Shown here: positions 56,979-63,176 of the stretch, piece after piece
How positions within the stretch are numbered: position 1 is the first letter of the stretch
How the letters are laid out: each line of letters opens with the position of its first letter
From: Marinobacter sediminum
GTDB lineage: Bacteria; Pseudomonadota; Gammaproteobacteria; Pseudomonadales; Oleiphilaceae
NCBI RefSeq assembly: GCF_016820575.1
Contig: NZ_JAEMQH010000001.1
Span: 1,302,001 to 1,366,000, forward strand
Length of the DNA: 64,000 nt
Direction: 5' to 3'
Translations under genes and position numbers: made by a program
Notes under the pieces: generated by a model
Told to the model about the DNA's origin: nothing
What the model saw: only the letters and a program-made list of their open reading frames with translations
Databases searched by the model: none

Positions 56979-57024
56979 AAGATCACAAAAATTTCATGAT
57001 CAAAAACTGGACACCGACGAATAA

Positions 57025-57066
57025 TGGGATTAAATTCCCAAAAGATGGTTTGGGAAAATAATCCCA
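57025..57066. promoter_or_regulatory. Two TGGGA-N6-TCCCA palindromes before the first DUF5666 gene
   Basis: TGGGA-TTAAAT-TCCCA (57025–57040) and TGGGA-AAATAA-TCCCA (57051–57066) are 26 bp apart start to start. The whole 42-base block is also nearly palindromic (16 of 18 positions per arm around AGATGG). The AT-rich centres resemble -10 boxes. A third copy lies before the DUF6502 gene. Confidence 0.8.
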
Positions 57067-57126
57067 TTTTAGTGGTTGGTTTATCCCTGACTGCCTACCG
57101 TCGCCCGATAACACTGGAGAAGAACG

Positions 57127-58584
57127 ATGAAGCGCAAACCCTTAGCAATCGCAGTGAAACTGATCATGACCGGCTCCCTGGTTGGGGCCATTGCCGCGTG
57201 CGGCGGCGGTGGCGGCTCGGGGAGTTCCTCCGGTGGTGGCAGCTCTTCAGGCTCCAGTGTTGGCGCTGTCTCGGGTTTTGGCAGTGTTTATGTCAACGGC
57301 ACCCGGTTTGAAACCGACGGCAGTGTGGTGAGCAACGATGGCCTGAGCCGAGAAGACCAGCTTGAAAAAGGCATGATCCTCAAGATCGATGGAGACTGGG
57401 ACGATCGGGGCGAGGGCCGCGCGGACCAGATCACCTACGACGACACCCTCCGCGGCCCGGTTTCAGCGATGACTTGGGACGAATTGGCCAGTACCGGCAC
57501 CCTGACGCTGCTCGGCCAGACTGTCACTCTGGATAGCAAAACGGTGTTCCGTGGCGCCACGCCAACGGTCATTGCCGGCAACCCAACAGGCTACCGGGTC
57601 CGAATCAGTGGCTGGCGTATGGACGATGGCAGCTTCCGTGCGAGCTATGTTGGTGCTCGGGCGTTAGGAGACGACTTTGATGACGTCAATGAGGTCGAAA
57701 TCGAGGGTGTCGTCGCCAATCTGGACGCCAGCGCCGAAACCTTCACCATCAATGGCTTCCTGATTAATTACACCAGCGCGGTCGGCGATGACGACTTCTC
57801 CCTGGACGATCTGGCCAACGACATTGTCGTGGAAGTTGAAGGTTTCTTGGACGGCACCACCATCATAGCCGAGGAAATCGACGATGAGGACGATCTGTTT
57901 GATAACGATGACGACGTCGAGATCTCCGGAACCATCTACGACTTCGACGCCGCCAGCGGCCGGTTCTCCCTGAATGGGGTCCGGGTACAAATCAACGGCG
58001 ATACCGAATTCGACGATCTCGGGGCAGACAGCCTTGCCGATGGACTGTTCGTGAAAGTGGAAGGGGAAGCGGTCAACGGCGTTCTGGTTGCCGAAGAGAT
58101 CGAGGGCCGGGAGTCTGACGCCGAGCTGGATGGCCGTATTGAATCCATCGATCTGGACAACGAATCCATGATCGTGAGTGGGGTGCGCGTTCAGTTAACC
58201 GGCAATACCCTGATCGATGACGACGACAGCGGCGAGGATAGCCGCCGTAGCCGTGCCCAGGACATCGAGAGTCTGCAGGTGGGTGACTATCTGGAGGTTG
58301 AAGGCCGCCAGCAAGGCACTGAGGGTGGGTTCCTCGAAGCCATCAGCATCGAGCGCGAAGACAGCGATGAGGATGGCGATTTCGAACTCGAAGCCCGGGT
58401 AACCGTAATTGGCACCGATTCCATTACCATCATGAACCTTGAGGTGCTGCGCAGTAACTTCAGCCTGTCCGGGGCCCAGGTGGGTGATGAAGTGGAAATC
58501 GGCTATCGCCTGACCACTGGCGGGCAGTACGAACTGACCGGCAATGTCGAAGTCGATAGCAGTGGCGACAGCTCTGAGGGTTAA
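57127..58584 (+). CDS. DUF5666 repeat lipoprotein, first copy
   Basis: The 485-residue protein has a lipoprotein signal (GSLVGAIAAC, Cys24), a Gly/Ser linker, then VSGFGSVYVNGTRFETDGS and four to five tandem DUF5666-type repeats of about 70 residues. Each runs like EIEGVV...FTINGFLINYTS...VEVEGFLDGTTIIAEEIDDED. The protein is very acidic (runs of D and E), which could bind calcium; that is inference. It is probably anchored on the periplasmic side or outer membrane. It is paralogous to the protein at 59591–61105. Function is unknown. GGAGAAG precedes the ATG. Confidence 0.83.
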   Translation: MKRKPLAIAVKLIMTGSLVGAIAACGGGGGSGSSSGGGSSSGSSVGAVSGFGSVYVNGTRFETDGSVVSNDGLSREDQLEKGMILKIDGDWDDRGEGRADQITYDDTLRGPVSAMTWDELASTGTLTLLGQTVTLDSKTVFRGATPTVIAGNPTGYRVRISGWRMDDGSFRASYVGARALGDDFDDVNEVEIEGVVANLDASAETFTINGFLINYTSAVGDDDFSLDDLANDIVVEVEGFLDGTTIIAEEIDDEDDLFDNDDDVEISGTIYDFDAASGRFSLNGVRVQINGDTEFDDLGADSLADGLFVKVEGEAVNGVLVAEEIEGRESDAELDGRIESIDLDNESMIVSGVRVQLTGNTLIDDDDSGEDSRRSRAQDIESLQVGDYLEVEGRQQGTEGGFLEAISIEREDSDEDGDFELEARVTVIGTDSITIMNLEVLRSNFSLSGAQVGDEVEIGYRLTTGGQYELTGNVEVDSSGDSSEG

Positions 58585-58646
58585 GCAGCGAGTGCCAATC
58601 CTGGCCGGTATACGCCGGCCAGGATTTCTGGCTTTTCCAATCGCTA

Positions 58647-58662
58647 TGGGAATACAATCCCA
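58647..58662. promoter_or_regulatory. TGGGA-N6-TCCCA palindrome at the DUF6502 start
   Basis: TGGGA-ATACAA-TCCCA ends three bases before the ATG of the DUF6502 gene. A -10-like TACAAT (58653–58658) lies inside it, about seven bases before the ATG, and no Shine-Dalgarno is present. This suggests a leaderless transcript and direct control at this site. Confidence 0.75.
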
Positions 58663-58665
58663 AAT

Positions 58666-59514
58666 ATGAAAAAGACCACCCCCCTAAATCAAGCGCTCTA
58701 CCGCATTCTGCGTCCTCTGGCGAGGTTGCTGCTCAGGAACGGCATTCCCTTCGGGGAATTCTCAGAGCTGGTGAAGCGCGCCTACGTGGAGGCCGCCCTC
58801 GAGGATTTTGACGACGGCCGTCGCAAACCCACGGATTCCCGCGCGGCCGTGATGACCGGGCTGACCCGCAAGGAAGTAAAGCGTCAGCGGGAGATTCTGG
58901 TAGGGCAGAGCCCGGGAGCGGGCGATGGGCTGCATGCCAACCGGGCATCGCGGGTGGTGTCGGGCTGGGTCCACGATGCGGCCTTTCAGACCAAAGACGG
59001 AGAGCCAGCCATGCTGGCCTTCGACGGACAGCTGAGCTTCAGCGAACTGGTCAAACGGTTTAGCGGTGATATGCCACCCCGGGCCGTGCTCGATGAGCTG
59101 CTGCGGGTCGGCGTGGTTTCGGTGGATGCGGAATCGGGCAAGCTGGCGCTGCAACAGAGGGCGTATGTACCGGCCGGAGACAGCGAGGAAATGCTCCAGA
59201 TTTTCGGCGAGGACGTCTCCGATCTCATCGCAACCATTGATCACAACCTGGTTCGCGACGAATCCGGGCAGCCGCCACGGTTTCAGAGAACCCTGACCTA
59301 CAACAACATCCCGCCGGAAGTAATGGACCGCTGGCGCAAGCACGCCGCTGCCCAGTCCCAAGCATTGCTGGAACAGCTGGATAGATGGCTGGGGCCGCAC
59401 GATCGGGATATTTCCGGGCACAAGCCTGACAGCGAGTGCGTGGATTCCGTCCGCACCGGTGTCGGCATATTCATGTTCGAAGAACGCGCCGGCAAAGGCT
59501 CAAAACAGAAATAA
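58666..59514 (+). CDS. DUF6502 family protein, putative DNA-binding regulator
   Basis: The 282-residue soluble protein starts MKKTTPLNQALYRILRPLAR and matches the DUF6502 family, which has no described function. Residues 57–78 (TDSRAAVMTGLTRKEVKRQR) read like a helix-turn-helix: a short helix, GLT turn and a basic recognition helix. The remainder is mixed helix and strand. It is between two DUF5666 lipoprotein genes, with a palindrome at its start, so an autoregulatory role over the module is a reasonable guess. There is no signal peptide. Confidence 0.8.
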   Translation: MKKTTPLNQALYRILRPLARLLLRNGIPFGEFSELVKRAYVEAALEDFDDGRRKPTDSRAAVMTGLTRKEVKRQREILVGQSPGAGDGLHANRASRVVSGWVHDAAFQTKDGEPAMLAFDGQLSFSELVKRFSGDMPPRAVLDELLRVGVVSVDAESGKLALQQRAYVPAGDSEEMLQIFGEDVSDLIATIDHNLVRDESGQPPRFQRTLTYNNIPPEVMDRWRKHAAAQSQALLEQLDRWLGPHDRDISGHKPDSECVDSVRTGVGIFMFEERAGKGSKQK

Positions 59515-59515
59515 C

Positions 59516-59544
59516 GGCATTCACTACAGGGCTTGAGTGATGCC
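59516..59544 (+). other. Hairpin between DUF6502 and the second DUF5666 gene
   Basis: GGCATTCACT pairs with AGTGATGCC (one bulged base) around a 10-base loop, starting just after the DUF6502 stop. No T-run follows. It may tune expression within the operon. Confidence 0.45.
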
Positions 59545-59590
59545 ACTTAACAGTGACCGGCCAGTAACGCCGGGACGGGAGAGAACAGGT

Positions 59591-61105
59591 ATGAAACGGC
59601 AACTCCGCAACCGTATTTTCGGGCTGGCCGCCGGCACAGTCGCTTTCGGCGTGATCTCCGCCTGCGGAGGCGGTGGTGGCGGCCTGAGCGTTGCCGATGG
59701 TGGCATCCGGGGCACCGGCTCAAGCGTTGGGCCGGTTTCAGGATTCGGGAGCGTGTTCGTCAACGGGGTTAAGTTCAGCACCGACGGCATTCCGAACCAG
59801 ACGGTGGAAAGCGACGATGGCATTGAGTTTGAGACCGATCTCAGCAAGGGCATGATTCTCCGGATCGAAGGCCAGTGGCGCGATGATGGCACCGGCACTG
59901 CTGATCGGCTGATCTACGACGATACCCTGCGTGGCCCGGTGGATCAGGTGGATGCCGATCCAAGCGGTGCCGGTGAATTCGTAACCCTGACGGTCATGGG
60001 CCAGACGGTGCTGGTTGACCGTCAGACCGTGGTGCGCGGCACCACCTATGCCACCCTGCTCAGCGGTGCGGCCATCAGCGATCATGTGCGCGTAAGCGCT
60101 TGGCGCCAGCCTGATGGCTCCTACCGAGCCGGCTACATCGAAACGATCGCGGTGAATGCCACCGACGTGGAACTGGAGGGCAGGGTATCCGCAGTGGATA
60201 CCTCACAGAACCGGTTCACCATCGGCACCATCACCGTCGAGTACGATGAGTTGAGTGTTAACTTCGGTTCCGGGCTGACCGAATCGGATCTGACCACCAC
60301 CACCGTGCTCGAAGTCGAGGGCAGTCTGGCTGGCACCGTGTTGACCGCCAGTAGCATCGACCGGGACGACGCCCGCCGGTTCAGCCGCAATGCCGGCGAC
60401 GACATTCAATTGACCGCGACCATCGATACCTCCTATAGCCCGTCCGGGACCGCCGCACGGCCCGGAGAGTTCCGCATTGGGGAACTGACCGTCAGAGTGA
60501 CGGACGCCACCGAACTGGACGACGACCTGGAGGTCTCGGATCTGAACGAAGGGCTCTTGGTCCAGGTTGAGGGGCAGTTCCTGTCGGATACCGTGGTCGA
60601 GGCTGAGGAAATCGAGCTTCGGGACGGCAATGCCAAAGTTGAGGGCGTGATTACCTCGGCCGCAGACAACGCTTTCGTCATTGGCGGTGTCGAAGTGCGG
60701 GTGTTACCGACCACGGCGCTGACTGTTGAAGATGGCTCCGACATATCGTTCGAGACCTTGCCCATCGGCACCACGACCGTAGAAGTCGAGGGCGTCGAGA
60801 AGCAGCAGGGCACCGAGGTCTTTATCGAAGCGCTGAAAGTCGAGGTGGACGATGAACTCACCAGTCCCGCTGATCGAAACCAGTATGAGCTGGAGGGCAA
60901 GCTTGCCGCTATCTCCCCCAGCGCCATTACGATCCTCGGTGTGACCATCGACGCCACTTCCGCAAGCTATGCCGACAATTCTCAGGCCGACATCATTAGC
61001 CGTTTTGGCAATGGTGAGGTGCTGGTTCTGGAGGTCGAATATTCGCGGGACGGGAACAATTTCACGGCCGTCGAAATTGAGCTTGAGGAAAACGATGACG
61101 ACTGA
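59591..61105 (+). CDS. DUF5666 repeat lipoprotein, second copy
   Basis: The 504-residue lipoprotein has a lipobox (FGVISAC) and the same build as the protein at 57127–58584: VGPVSGFGSVFVNGVKFSTDG, then DTLRGPVDQ, then tandem DUF5666-like repeats (VELEGRVSAVDTSQNRFTIGTITVEYDEL; VEVEGVEKQQGTEVFIEALKVEVDD). It is acidic (ends EENDDD). It follows the DUF6502 gene by 76 bases on the same strand and is probably in its operon. ATG 59591 has GGGAGAGAAC upstream; an earlier in-frame start does not give a signal peptide at the N terminus. Function is unknown. Confidence 0.83.
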   Translation: MKRQLRNRIFGLAAGTVAFGVISACGGGGGGLSVADGGIRGTGSSVGPVSGFGSVFVNGVKFSTDGIPNQTVESDDGIEFETDLSKGMILRIEGQWRDDGTGTADRLIYDDTLRGPVDQVDADPSGAGEFVTLTVMGQTVLVDRQTVVRGTTYATLLSGAAISDHVRVSAWRQPDGSYRAGYIETIAVNATDVELEGRVSAVDTSQNRFTIGTITVEYDELSVNFGSGLTESDLTTTTVLEVEGSLAGTVLTASSIDRDDARRFSRNAGDDIQLTATIDTSYSPSGTAARPGEFRIGELTVRVTDATELDDDLEVSDLNEGLLVQVEGQFLSDTVVEAEEIELRDGNAKVEGVITSAADNAFVIGGVEVRVLPTTALTVEDGSDISFETLPIGTTTVEVEGVEKQQGTEVFIEALKVEVDDELTSPADRNQYELEGKLAAISPSAITILGVTIDATSASYADNSQADIISRFGNGEVLVLEVEYSRDGNNFTAVEIELEENDDD

Positions 61106-61235: not shown

Positions 61236-63176
61236 ATGTCATTTCATTCCCTGCAGCGGCTGATCTCGAGCCGTCTGCTTCGGCCGGTGTTCATCGTTCT
61301 GGTGGTTGCCGGCCTGGTTCAGGTGGTCGTCAGCCAATGGCTGATTTCCAGTCAGGTCGAGCGTTTGGTCGACACCGCAGGGGCCGCCCTTGAGGCCAGC
61401 AGCCGGCAGGTCAGTGCCTCCTTCGGTAACACCCGCGAAGATGTCCGCTCCCGCCTGCAGACCATGCGGCAGACAACCACGGAGGAGCTGTCTGCCGAGC
61501 TCACCCGTCAGCAGACCGCTCAGCAGGAACGCGTTGCAGGGAATGTCCGTTCTGCCGTAATGGCGGAAGCTCAGGGGTTGGCCGACGTACTTGCGGCGGT
61601 TGCTGCCCCGCTGATCTGGGATCGCGATGTGCCCCGCCTGACCGATCTGGTAGAGCTGGCGGACGCCCGCGAATCGGTGTTGTTCGCGGTTTATTACGAC
61701 CAGTACGGCGATCGCCTGACCCGCTATGTGGACCGGACGGATGACCGAGTGCGCACCTTAATGGGGCAGGGTGAGGGCCGTGGTGCGGCAAATCGTGTCC
61801 TGGATGCGGCAAGTCGTGACCCCAATGTCGTGATCGTCACGGCCGACATTGCGCCTCAGGGGTCAGCAATTGGCCAGTTAAAACTGGGCTTATCGCTGGA
61901 GGGGATCAATCGAGACCTGACCGCTCTGGAGCAAGAATTCAGCGCCACCATCACCGGTAGTATCGATGCGTTGCGCGACACGCTGGAATCGGAGACCGAG
62001 CAGGTTAATCAGCGTCTTCAGCAGCAATTGTCCGGAATGGACGCGGACACCCAGTCCAGAATTCAAAGCACGGTAGAAGCCCTGAATGTCGAGGCTTCCA
62101 GTCTTGCGGCAAATCTTTCCCTGCTGGCTATCGGGTCGGTCGTGGTTCTGATCCTGCTGATGGCGCTGGTGTTGGGCGGCGGACTCTTGCCCCGGGTGTT
62201 TCGACTGAATACTGCGATCTGGGATATCGCCGACGGCGAGGCCGATCTGACCCGCCGGGTATCCCTCAAAGGCAAGGACGAGCTGACCGAAATGGCGCGC
62301 GGCATGAACCAGTTCATTGCCCGGATTCAGGAGTTGGTGTCCGATGTGAAGGCGTCTGCCGAATCTGCCGCCGGTCAGGCCCGGGAGCAGGGCGAGATCA
62401 GCCAGGACGCAGTTGCTGCGGTGAATCATCAGCAGCGGGAAGTGGCTGAGGTGTCCGAAACCATGGCCGCCATGTCACAGAGTATCTCGGAAGTGGCGGA
62501 CAGCATTCAGGAAGTAGCTGGCTCGGTGCAGACCATCGGCGCCGAGAGCGAGGCCACGGCCGAGATCTCCCGGGATGTGCGTGAGCGTCTGGATGCGGTG
62601 GTGCGACAGGTTGAGAAAGCGGTTGAGGCGGTGAACGCGCTCAACACTCAGAGCACCGAGATAACGTCGGTGCTGTCGGTGATTGGCGCGATTGCCGAAC
62701 AGACCAACCTGCTGGCACTAAACGCCGCAATAGAAGCGGCGCGGGCCGGGGAGTCCGGTCGCGGCTTTGCCGTGGTGGCGGATGAGGTGCGCACGCTGGC
62801 CAGCCGTACCCAGGAGTCCACCACGGAAATCGAAGGCATCATTGCGCGCCTGCAGCGTGGCAGCCATGAGGCAGTGTCGGTGATCGATCAGGTGTCGGGA
62901 CAGGTTGCCGATTCCTCAACCGAGTTCCGCAAGGCCGACGAGCACTTCGAGGAGATCAATCAGTTGCTGGGCAACCTACAGGAGCGGGCGCTGACTATCT
63001 CCTCAGTCGCCGAACAGGAAGGGCGTCATGCCGGCAAGGTCAGCGTCAGTGTCGAGGACATCGCCCGTTCGTCCGAAACCACCGTTGAAGCCATCCACCG
63101 GTCTGACAATGCCAGTCAGAAGATTGGTGAGTTGCTGGCAGCGCTTCAGGCTAAAGCTTCCCAGTTCCGGGTTTAA
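61236..63176 (+). CDS. Methyl-accepting chemotaxis protein
   Basis: The 646-residue receptor has a first transmembrane helix (about 16–38), a periplasmic region of about 240 residues including coiled coil, a second helix ([23 protein letters not shown], near 290–312), HAMP and the MCP signalling domain. The hairpin tip reads [38 protein letters not shown]. The ligand is unknown. ATG 61236 has GGAG five bases upstream; the frame extends 29 codons upstream without a membrane signal. The stop lies in a 16-base tandem duplication. Confidence 0.92.

Follow-up and report, generated by a model that had tools for sequence, protein, structure and literature searches.

A DUF5666–DUF6502–DUF5666 locus carries a repeated palindrome

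The window analysed here is a 64,000-nucleotide stretch of the Marinobacter sediminum genome, in which a DUF6502 gene lies between two genes for DUF5666 lipoproteins (Table 1). This arrangement had been proposed from the DNA letters alone, and all three Pfam matches were indeed recovered, with lipoprotein-type signals apparent by direct reading in both flanking proteins (AIAAC and VISAC). The two DUF5666 proteins score 145.5 and 128.6 bits against PF18914, above the curated cut-off, in 5 and 6 stretches of a repeated domain, and the DUF6502 protein scores 216.8 bits against PF20112 (curated cut-off 27) across residues 8-274. The second DUF5666 gene is the next gene downstream of DUF6502, separated from it by 76 bp, and an in-frame GTG at 59537 provides an alternative start. 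Its product carries GIRGTG close to where the mature lipoprotein begins, whereas the first DUF5666 protein lacks a GIxGTG motif.

DUF6502 records come from Proteobacteria, Nitrospirota, Desulfuromonas-type bacteria, SAR324, Planctomycetota and others, as judged from record titles. The literature searched, as far as its accessible text goes, yielded no described function for either family: DUF6502 was not mentioned there, and DUF5666 was listed by name. An AlphaFold model of the DUF6502 protein (pLDDT 80.7) places helices at residues 57-64 and 68-80, in agreement with the helix-turn-helix-like segment originally predicted at residues 57–78. Within this segment, T64, G65 and R68 are invariant in 31 aligned sequences.

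Table 1. Positions of genes, putative operators and protein features at the locus, numbered from the first letter of the window.
Feature	Position	Strand	Basis or remark
Operator 1 (putative), TGGGATTAAATTCCCA	57025..57040	.	exact match; upstream of first DUF5666 gene
Operator 2 (putative), TGGGAAAATAATCCCA	57051..57066	.	exact match; 26 bp from operator 1
First DUF5666 lipoprotein gene, 485 aa	57127..58584	+	Pfam PF18914, E 5.6e-43
Terminator-like hairpin between first DUF5666 gene and DUF6502	58597..58626	+	13-pair stem and T-rich tail; 5 terminator-like sites in the region versus 3.5 expected
Operator 3 (putative), TGGGAATACAATCCCA	58647..58662	.	exact match; position conserved at other DUF6502 genes
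DUF6502 gene, 282 aa	58666..59514	+	Pfam PF20112, E 3.3e-64
Helix-turn-helix of DUF6502, residues 57-80	58834..58905	+	alignment and model secondary structure
DUF6502 residues 178-182 (Q178, E182)	59197..59211	+	charges co-vary with motif residue x
Second DUF5666 lipoprotein gene, 504 aa	59591..61105	+	Pfam PF18914, E 1.1e-37
Motif GIRGTG, residues 38-43 of second DUF5666 protein	59702..59719	+	read from sequence

The locus also carries three exact copies of the palindrome TGGGA-N6-TCCCA, each where the original prediction had placed it, and an exact-match scan of the window found only these. Only 0.05 such sites are expected by chance, as estimated from 100 shuffled sequences, none of which reached three. 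Because matching with two mismatches produced no excess in the window (24 found versus 36 expected), exact sites were used there. In the whole genome (3.72 Mb) there are seven exact palindromes, three of them at the locus, and three matches to a reversed control pattern. With an A/T-rich core (WWNNWW), the genome count falls to four, of which three are at the locus and the fourth lies inside an ORF.

All three sites overlap promoter-like hexamers. Operator 1 overlaps a -35-like hexamer (TTCCCA, 57035) that pairs, across a 16-bp spacer, with the -10-like AATAAT (57057-57062) covered by operator 2. It also contains its own -10-like TAAATT (57031-57036), which a promoter scan pairs with TGGACA at 57008. 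Site pairs 25-27 bp apart occur among those listed for other Marinobacter genomes. Operator 3 covers the -10-like TACAAT (58653-58658), which ends seven bases before the DUF6502 ATG, and therefore the mRNA may be leaderless, with a probable leaderless start at this ATG. A consensus promoter scan of the region, which called three promoter-like sites versus 1.6 expected, did not call a DUF6502 promoter at operator 3. Our reading of this promoter is based instead on the conservation of the -10 position in other genomes.

The palindrome accompanies DUF6502 genes in other genomes

A set of 154 DUF6502 sequences plus that of the window was reduced to 115 non-redundant members, and the prediction that the palindrome would recur at other DUF6502 loci was checked on these. 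An exact copy lies near the gene start in 32 of 32 Marinobacter genes and in 41 of 83 genes from other genera and phyla, the latter count being a slight undercount as two loci (L224 and L225) have exact sites yet were scored without. Eleven more of the 83 carry the palindrome with one mismatch, and in the remaining 31 the best site has two or more; in-gene controls yielded exact palindromes in 0 of 83. When 5-bp inverted repeats with spacers of 0-12 were enumerated upstream of the 83 genes, TGGGA-N6-TCCCA ranked at the top with 41 regions, versus a best of 6 in controls. The palindrome is frequently missing from divergent DUF6502 genes (43 of 86 in a new locus set). This new set derives from a class-level search, from which 90 loci (L344-L433), a subset of the matches listed, were used; 5 of 91 DUF6502 sequences were dropped as redundant.

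The palindrome typically sits on the -10 box of the DUF6502 gene, with a TATAAT-like core inside it, and TTGAC is present at -17 in 19 of 49 sites. At three loci (L193, L202 and L214) the ATG is farther away, in the latter two with a Shine-Dalgarno-like sequence, and the palindrome core still resembles a -10 box. The palindrome thus appears to be a promoter element rather than a translational one. Among order genomes, sites with an A/T core are present in 25 of 46 with DUF6502 versus 30 of 247 without (Fisher p 1.7e-9, tallied by hand). The palindrome is also carried by upstream DUF5666 genes at five loci of other genera and, in one genome (G099), by a DUF5666 gene 72 kb away.

The presence of the site both at DUF6502 starts and at DUF5666 genes elsewhere supports, at the level of sequence, the earlier proposal that DUF6502 controls its own gene and lipoprotein genes. 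By all appearances DUF6502 is an autoregulator with DUF5666 genes among its further targets, and we propose the first DUF5666 gene of the window as a member of its regulon. Protein bound over -10 or -35 hexamers normally blocks RNA polymerase. Because the palindrome covers the -10 box of its target promoters, DUF6502 most likely represses them, and it is probably a repressor.

A putatively exported partner with a G-I-x-G-(T/S)-G motif

The gene directly downstream of DUF6502 usually encodes an exported-looking protein with the motif G-I-x-G-(T/S)-G. Using a crude hydrophobicity rule to call export, and omitting loci with less than 250 or 200 bp downstream as well as DUF6502 matches below 60 bits, we found the motif in 84 of 103 directly downstream genes versus 2 of 130 other exported-like ORFs. 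Both background carriers (L226 and L239) lie next to a DUF6502 gene in divergent orientation. In Marinobacter, GGIRGTG recurs in the proteins downstream of DUF6502. The motif directly follows the lipobox or signal peptide, near the mature N-terminus. Twelve precursors contain three to six copies, and DUF6502 and its partner gene often overlap by 4 bp.

DUF5666 itself was considered as the conserved partner and dropped, as genomes without a DUF5666 match retain the motif in other proteins. Thirteen genomes of the order have DUF6502 but no match to DUF5666, and in all 13 the ORF behind DUF6502 has the motif; six of them are from one genus and one fails the export rule. Of 24 DUF5666 loci, 10 have DUF6502 in the stretch examined, and 9 of these carry the motif; it was not seen in the N-termini read at the other 14. 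It is found in 0 of 37 DUF5666 paralogues upstream of DUF6502. DUF5666 is a frequent motif carrier, yet only one of several, and we propose that the second DUF5666 protein of the window carries the ligand motif.

Of the 83 loci that could be evaluated in the new locus set, 27 do not satisfy the motif rule in its strict form. Sixteen of these 27 have a close variant by eye (e.g. IGGTG, ISGSG, ETGTG), and several of the 16 failed solely through the start-codon or export heuristic.

Motif residue x co-varies with DUF6502 residues 178 and 182

Residues 178-182 lie in the first helix of the DUF6502 C-terminal region. Column 182 is the sole one of 282 that follows a charge-swap pattern, being acidic in 7 of 7 Marinobacter sequences (x=R; threshold 6/7) as well as L057 (x=K), but basic in 4 of 5 sequences of a clade whose partners carry Glu at x (threshold 3/5). 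Likewise, R178 is present in 5 of 5 sequences with x=E versus 1 of 61 with x=G, although both columns were picked by scanning all columns and the Marinobacter case represents one clade. Among the new loci, R178 occurs in 3 of 4 with acidic x versus 5 of 52 with other x (p 0.0075). Adding motifs read by hand changes the latter fraction to 7 of 68 (p 0.0074).

Several sequences run against a simple charge rule. In a GTDGTG clade (four sequences) neither position 178 nor position 182 is basic, L402 combines x=E with Glu178, and a basic residue 178 is also found with x=G, for example at L399 and L409, which have close-variant motifs. R178 is retained at L400 and L417 although the motif is absent or altered, and D182 accompanies a hydrophobic x (V or I) in four new loci. 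The E182 rule, which pairs a basic x with an acidic residue 182, found no confirmation among the 56 new partners with the motif, as R and K are absent at x from all of them. Charge co-variation of x with residues 178 and 182 is supported, and the new loci back residue 178.

Structural models of DUF6502 resemble HetR

When AlphaFold models of two DUF6502 proteins were compared with known structures by Foldseek and VIA-align, HetR, the heterocyst regulator of cyanobacteria, ranked first over full length for both (E 4.8e-4 and 4.2e-3). VIA-align superimposed 219 and 220 residues with Z scores of 8.6 and 8.2 and an rmsd of ~10 Å; by the tool's own note, a Z near 8 may be chance. The models support a HetR-like fold for DUF6502.

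Homology by sequence was unsupported by hmmsearch or by either HHalign comparison. The DUF6502 protein of the window has DUF6502 as its sole match at E up to 0.1 and does not match the HetR models Peptidase_S48 (PF03574) or HetR_C (PF18460), whereas a HetR chain used as a positive control matches both. HetR was absent at E up to 1 from a search of the PDB with a DUF6502 profile. HHalign against two HetR chains gave an E of 0.15, and among 572 targets (the two HetR chains, ORF decoys and 100 shuffles) these chains ranked 197 and 425, no better than decoys. The HetR_C model found nothing above cut-off in 100 genomes, and a HetR search of plasmids returned chance matches only. By eye, DUF6502 has no acidic counterparts of the HetR residues that contact PatS (Glu253, Glu254, Asp256, Asp270, Asp278), in an alignment whose register is not significant.

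A proposed mechanism and its alternatives

We propose that DUF6502 acts as a transcription factor of the helix-turn-helix type, probably as a dimer, with an architecture resembling that of cyanobacterial HetR. Its target would be TTGGGA-N6-TCCCAA, bound over the -10 box of the DUF6502 promoter itself, which is often a leaderless one, and also at the promoters that make up a small regulon, other DUF5666 lipoprotein genes included; the effect would most likely be repression. The gene directly downstream would supply an exported protein in which the G-I-x-G-(T/S)-G motif occurs once or several times close to the mature N-terminus. As a freed peptide or on the precursor, this motif would be the cognate ligand that the C-terminal helical region of DUF6502 recognises, and would change the regulator's hold on DNA, by analogy with RG(S/T)GR peptides and HetR. 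Charge co-variation bears on this step indirectly. The conserved palindrome, its place in the promoter, the gene pair and the motif are evident from sequence, whereas binding to DNA, repression, release of a peptide and the direction of any response are inferred here. Taken as a whole, we give this explanation a probability of roughly 55%.

An alternative that we consider unlikely but credible is that DUF6502 is a palindrome-binding autorepressor and the GIxGTG motif is unrelated to it, serving as a processing, sorting or anchoring signal. The motif does lie right behind the lipobox or signal peptide, where such signals occur, and DUF5666 is a frequent carrier. However, DUF5666 ORFs upstream of DUF6502 and the orphan DUF5666 loci inspected lack the motif, other exported proteins carry it when located behind DUF6502, and charge co-variation between the motif and DUF6502 would not be expected. 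Rather unlikely, in our estimation, is export sensing, in which the co-translated partner is bound by DUF6502 through the motif while still a cytoplasmic precursor, so that DUF6502 reads the status of secretion or lipoprotein maturation, the peptide being neither released nor re-imported. This scheme dispenses with a peptidase and an importer, and it suits both the frequent gene overlap and a motif that adjoins the signal peptide. Precursors with several motif copies, however, better fit the release of several peptides, and the PatX precursor of the HetR system is described as being exported and then cleaved (PMC12756182).

Other alternatives concern the palindrome rather than the motif. DUF6502 could activate its targets, as HetR, its best structural match, is described as doing (PMC4649674), but the sites cover a -10-like hexamer and, at the first DUF5666 gene, also a -35-like hexamer, and we regard activation as quite improbable. 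It is highly improbable that the palindrome is bound by another regulator, or forms an RNA hairpin or terminator, with DUF6502 as a passenger. A/T-core sites do exist in some genomes without DUF6502, and a terminator scan of the region (5 terminator-like sites found versus 3.5 expected) flags operator 2 on the + strand and operator 1 on the - strand. Against this, the palindrome tracks DUF6502 across phyla and genomes, keeps its -10-like position when the leader length changes, and would lie upstream of the RNA if the message is leaderless.

Significance and comparison with known systems

Peptide signalling of this kind would be unusual in Gram-negative bacteria. The interpretation that accompanied the original prediction missed the resemblance of the fold to HetR, the exported partner with its motif, and the status of DUF5666 as one carrier among several. 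These features raise the prospect, which we hold tentatively and at somewhat less than even odds, of a HetR-PatX-like module far outside cyanobacteria, in which autoregulated DUF6502 recognises a GI(x)G(T/S)G peptide whose exported precursor is encoded next to it. If true, bacteria would possess a widespread family of peptide signals that has gone undescribed, and heterocyst patterning would seem to descend from a regulator and peptide that were paired much earlier. The literature places the origin of HetR-PatX within filamentous cyanobacteria (PMC12756182). Should the HetR resemblance hold, that origin becomes a testable question, and one of the best-studied bacterial patterning switches has relatives in ordinary single-celled bacteria. 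DUF6502 also gains a candidate operator, regulon and ligand, all directly testable.

Where Pfam lists DUF6502 as a family of unknown function, we propose a regulatory role and an operator; for DUF5666, only the copies downstream of DUF6502 carry GIxGTG among the loci inspected. Autoregulation and a palindromic target with G- and C-triplet half-sites would be shared with HetR, but the HetR consensus is GGG-N5-CCC (PMC4649674) and the DUF6502-associated site is GGG-N8-CCC. HetR has three domains (HTH DNA-binding, flap and hood), and the two DUF6502 models rank it first over full length, at Z scores near the level of chance arrangements. As with PatS, PatX and HetN, the regulator is linked to an exported precursor that contains a G-(S/T)-G core, and IRGTGS of Marinobacter resembles HRGTGR, which is yielded by Nostoc PatX (PMC12756182, PMC7761841). 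However, RG(S/T)GR itself is not matched: the window has GIRGTGS and most other loci have GIGGTG, the two arginines are not shared together, and the flanking arginines are missing in most lineages of DUF6502 partners. The partner is, moreover, often a large DUF5666 lipoprotein, and DUF6502 is non-cyanobacterial, with no multicellular development implied. In RRNPP-type regulators of Gram-positive bacteria, an exported precursor is likewise encoded beside a cytoplasmic DNA-binding receptor, but the fold and the precursors are different.

Association of a palindrome with DUF6502 genes

The original prediction described three exact TGGGA-N6-TCCCA palindromes around a DUF5666, DUF6502, DUF5666 gene series. 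All three are present at the positions claimed (see table), where 0.05 would be expected in the window, and Pfam matches corroborate the gene order. The whole genome carries seven exact copies, including these three, and no DUF6502 or DUF5666 matches are found in it beyond the module (E up to 0.001). A chemotaxis gene follows the module, and such a gene is likewise found downstream on plasmids of Rhizobium leguminosarum WSM1325 (L339) and Azospirillum lipoferum 4B (L340).

Coordinates of features in and next to the module
Feature	Position in window	Context
Operator 1	57025-57040	upstream of first DUF5666 gene, over a -35-like hexamer
Operator 2	57051-57066	upstream of first DUF5666 gene, over a -10-like hexamer
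Operator 3	58647-58662	at DUF6502 start
-10-like hexamer TACAAT	58653-58658	within operator 3, DUF6502 promoter
Methyl-accepting chemotaxis gene	61239-63176	after the module

We predict, with a probability of roughly 0.9, that DUF6502 is an autoregulator that binds this palindrome. The 32 named loci that best match the DUF6502 protein of the window are all from Marinobacter, which marks the window as coming from a Marinobacter-type genome. A non-redundant set of 115 DUF6502 genes comprises 32 from Marinobacter and 83 from elsewhere. In the interval from -250 to +90 relative to the start, the exact palindrome occurs in 32/32 Marinobacter genes and in 41/83 others, mostly at -19 or -20, as the original prediction anticipated for DUF6502 genes of other genomes. 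Eleven more of the 83 have a one-mismatch palindrome, some far upstream, and equal-length stretches from within genes of the same 83 yield 0/83 exact and 1/83 one-mismatch sites. When 5-bp inverted repeats with spacers of 0-12 were enumerated in the upstream regions of the 83 loci and in controls, without a preset motif, TGGGA with a spacer of 6 ranked first (41/83 loci), and the best control palindrome reached 6. A later, separate class-level set of 86 non-redundant genes gives 29 exact and 14 one-mismatch sites, an uncontrolled count.

Co-occurrence across genomes points the same way. Among 61 genomes of the genus, 37 encode full-length DUF6502 and 39 DUF5666, the latter comprising all 37 plus G056 and G060 (a weak single match); a 9-kb stretch around the DUF5666 gene of G056 contains no palindrome. 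Among 293 genomes of the order, sites with an A/T core (WWNNWW) occur in 25/46 with DUF6502 versus 30/247 without (hand tally; Fisher odds ratio 8.6, p 1.7e-9, kinship ignored), and DUF5666 in 33/46 versus 18/247 (hand tally; p 2.5e-20, kinship ignored). Titles of named-locus records include Nitrospirota, Burkholderiales, Desulfuromonas, SAR324 and Planctomycetota, where single placements could be contaminants because many records are metagenome bins. From these sequence comparisons, the palindrome appears to belong to DUF6502.

Several variant loci were also observed. Some divergent lineages (L319-L324 and L244) have a one-base-shorter TGGGA-N5-TCCCA beside DUF6502. Two Marinobacter loci (L262 of G034 and L265 of G027) have lost most of the module, and the palindrome and DUF6502 remnants remain between cbpA/MerR-like and chemotaxis or nitronate monooxygenase-like genes. 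One 7.2-Mb genome of the order-level sample, G199, carries eight DUF6502 matches and seven A/T-core palindromes, and may allow receptor-ligand pairs to be compared inside one cell.

Promoter overlap and candidate regulon

Across 49 sites carrying no more than one mismatch, the commonest position of TTGAC is 17 bases before the palindrome (19/49), and the core resembles TATAAT, as expected if the palindrome lies on the -10 box of a sigma-70-type promoter, which is how we read the site. Many DUF6502 genes have an ATG only a few bases 3′ of the palindrome, leaving no room for a Shine-Dalgarno sequence, and thus the message is probably leaderless. Loci L193, L202 and L214 have a leader, yet their palindrome core is still -10-like. 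Site pairs spaced 25-27 bp, like operators 1 and 2, occur in other Marinobacter genomes. A scan of the region adds little alone, since its counts are near expectation (3 promoter-like sites versus 1.6 expected; 5 terminator-like sites versus 3.5) and operators 1 and 2 themselves account for two of the terminator-like sites. A terminator-like hairpin of 13 pairs lies between the first DUF5666 gene and DUF6502. Judging from the position of the sites on promoter hexamers, occlusion of the promoter would be the simplest reading, and DUF6502 probably acts mainly as a repressor.

The upstream DUF5666 gene also carries a site in five loci of other genera (L197, L211, L218, L222 and L227). In G099 (L278), a DUF5666 gene with a site lies 72 kb away from DUF6502, which suggests that the predicted action of DUF6502 extends in trans. 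The 48 non-Marinobacter named loci hold 55 exact sites, 33 of them assigned automatically to a DUF6502 start; of the remaining 22, several are DUF6502 sites missed through ORF choice. Exported and redox-type proteins, read by eye, are among the products of further genes that have a site close by.

Gene identities at two individual sites were likewise read by eye. In L277 (G276), the site at 1518 precedes a cytochrome c and flavoprotein-like gene pair by 44 bp and lies a few kilobases away from the DUF6502-DUF5666 operon. In L287 (G190), the site at 145 is ~47 bp upstream of a DUF4382-resembling lipoprotein gene, suggesting further lipoprotein targets.

An exported-looking partner with a GIxGTG motif

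In 94/103 non-redundant, non-Marinobacter loci, the gene directly downstream of DUF6502, frequently with a 4-bp overlap, has a product that looks exported. The motif G[ILMVFT]xG[TS]G, sought in the first 160 residues, is carried by this gene in 84/103 loci versus 2/130 other exported-looking ORFs (p 9e-42), and both exceptions (L226 and L239) adjoin a divergently oriented DUF6502 gene. In 80 named loci (redundancy kept), G[IVLT]xGTG is found near the mature N-terminus of 54/71 downstream DUF5666 ORFs and of 0/37 upstream ones. Of 24 DUF5666 loci in the order sample, 9/10 showing DUF6502 in the fetched stretch have the motif, and the visible N-termini of the 14 without DUF6502 in the stretch lack it.

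The motif is not tied to DUF5666. In order genomes with DUF6502 and no DUF5666 match, the downstream ORF carries it in 13/13 cases (six belong to one genus, and L329 fails the export rule), including the tiny carriers L325, L327 and L329 of 96-133 residues; second DUF6502 copies in DUF5666-bearing genomes also precede tiny carriers (L334, L336 and L337). Twelve precursors have three to six motif copies within the first 200 residues. In the later set, 56/83 evaluable loci satisfy the strict rule, and 16/27 failures show close variants by eye. The gene after DUF6502 in L428 (G865) encodes an exported-looking protein whose GISVGD repeats may mark it as a variant peptide precursor.

Marinobacter loci often have a short DUF6502-like ORF in between, and the DUF5666 protein after it has GGIRGTG. 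This ORF of 131-152 aa overlaps the DUF6502 stop by 1-4 bp in many loci (L161-L164, L168, L169, L175, L179, L180, L183-L185, L188, L189, L191 and L192), resembles mainly profile positions 89-173 of DUF6502, and is absent from the window locus.

The variable residue x co-varies with DUF6502 residues 178 and 182, which lie one turn apart in the first helix of the C-terminal region of the AlphaFold model. Residue 182 is Glu in 7/7 Marinobacter loci with x = Arg and in L057 with x = Lys, Arg in 4/5 with x = Glu, and Glu in 1/61 with x = Gly; Arg178 is present in 5/5 with x = Glu versus 1/61 with x = Gly. Of 282 columns, 182 alone is acidic in at least 6/7 Marinobacter plus L057 and basic in at least 3/5 of the Glu-partner clade. 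When residues 174-186 are left out of the tree, L057 groups as the sister of that clade and not of Marinobacter (support 0.97, group of six), which implies at least two origins for the pairing of acidic 182 with basic x. Among new loci, Arg178 occurs in 3/4 with acidic x versus 5/52 with other x (p 0.0075), and inclusion of 16 partners read by hand turns the latter count into 7/68 (p 0.0074). These three loci are not sisters, and two (L370 and L397) fall within one 31-member clade (support 0.87) where basic 178 also accompanies other or unknown x. A four-member GTDGTG clade runs against a charge rule, as do L402 (Glu178, Lys182), four loci that combine Asp182 with a hydrophobic x, and a few where a basic residue 178 accompanies x = Gly. 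On balance, we marginally favor the GIxGTG motif as a candidate ligand of DUF6502.

Comparison with HetR

AlphaFold models were built for the DUF6502 protein of the window (31 sequences, pLDDT 80.7) and for a homologue from Nitrospirota (92 sequences, pLDDT 89.9). For both, HetR, the cyanobacterial heterocyst regulator, is the top Foldseek match (E 4.8e-4 and 4.2e-3, respectively). VIA-align also ranks it first for both, in a co-linear alignment along the full length (Z 8.6 and 8.2, where by the tool's note values near 8 can be chance), over 219 and 220 residues at an rmsd of ~10 Å. More HetR entries appear within the next five rows, and most other rows match one small HTH/winged-helix domain. 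Sequence profile comparisons of DUF6502 with HetR lend no support to a relationship. Given this and the weak rmsd and Z values, we take the likeness, which exists at the level of structure models and not of sequence profiles, as structural resemblance and not family membership. A shared architecture is somewhat more likely than not, and by order along the chain the C-terminal region bearing residues 178 and 182 would correspond to the HetR hood.

Among the titles listed from the literature searched, many subscription journals and all bioRxiv preprints aside, none concerns HetR relatives outside cyanobacteria. Within the same limits no paper names DUF6502 and four name DUF5666, which the passages retrieved list without a function; GIGGTG appears in one paper, on antifungal peptides. 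The entire chain of palindrome-binding autoregulation, repression, GIxGTG ligand and HetR architecture is a tentative proposal, to which we assign somewhat less than even odds. HetR itself depends on a central GGG-N5-CCC, and RGSGR-type peptides that bind its hood release it from DNA (PMC4649674). In a module described as cyanobacterial, exported PatX is processed by PatP to HRGTGR, an inhibitor of HetR (PMC12756182).
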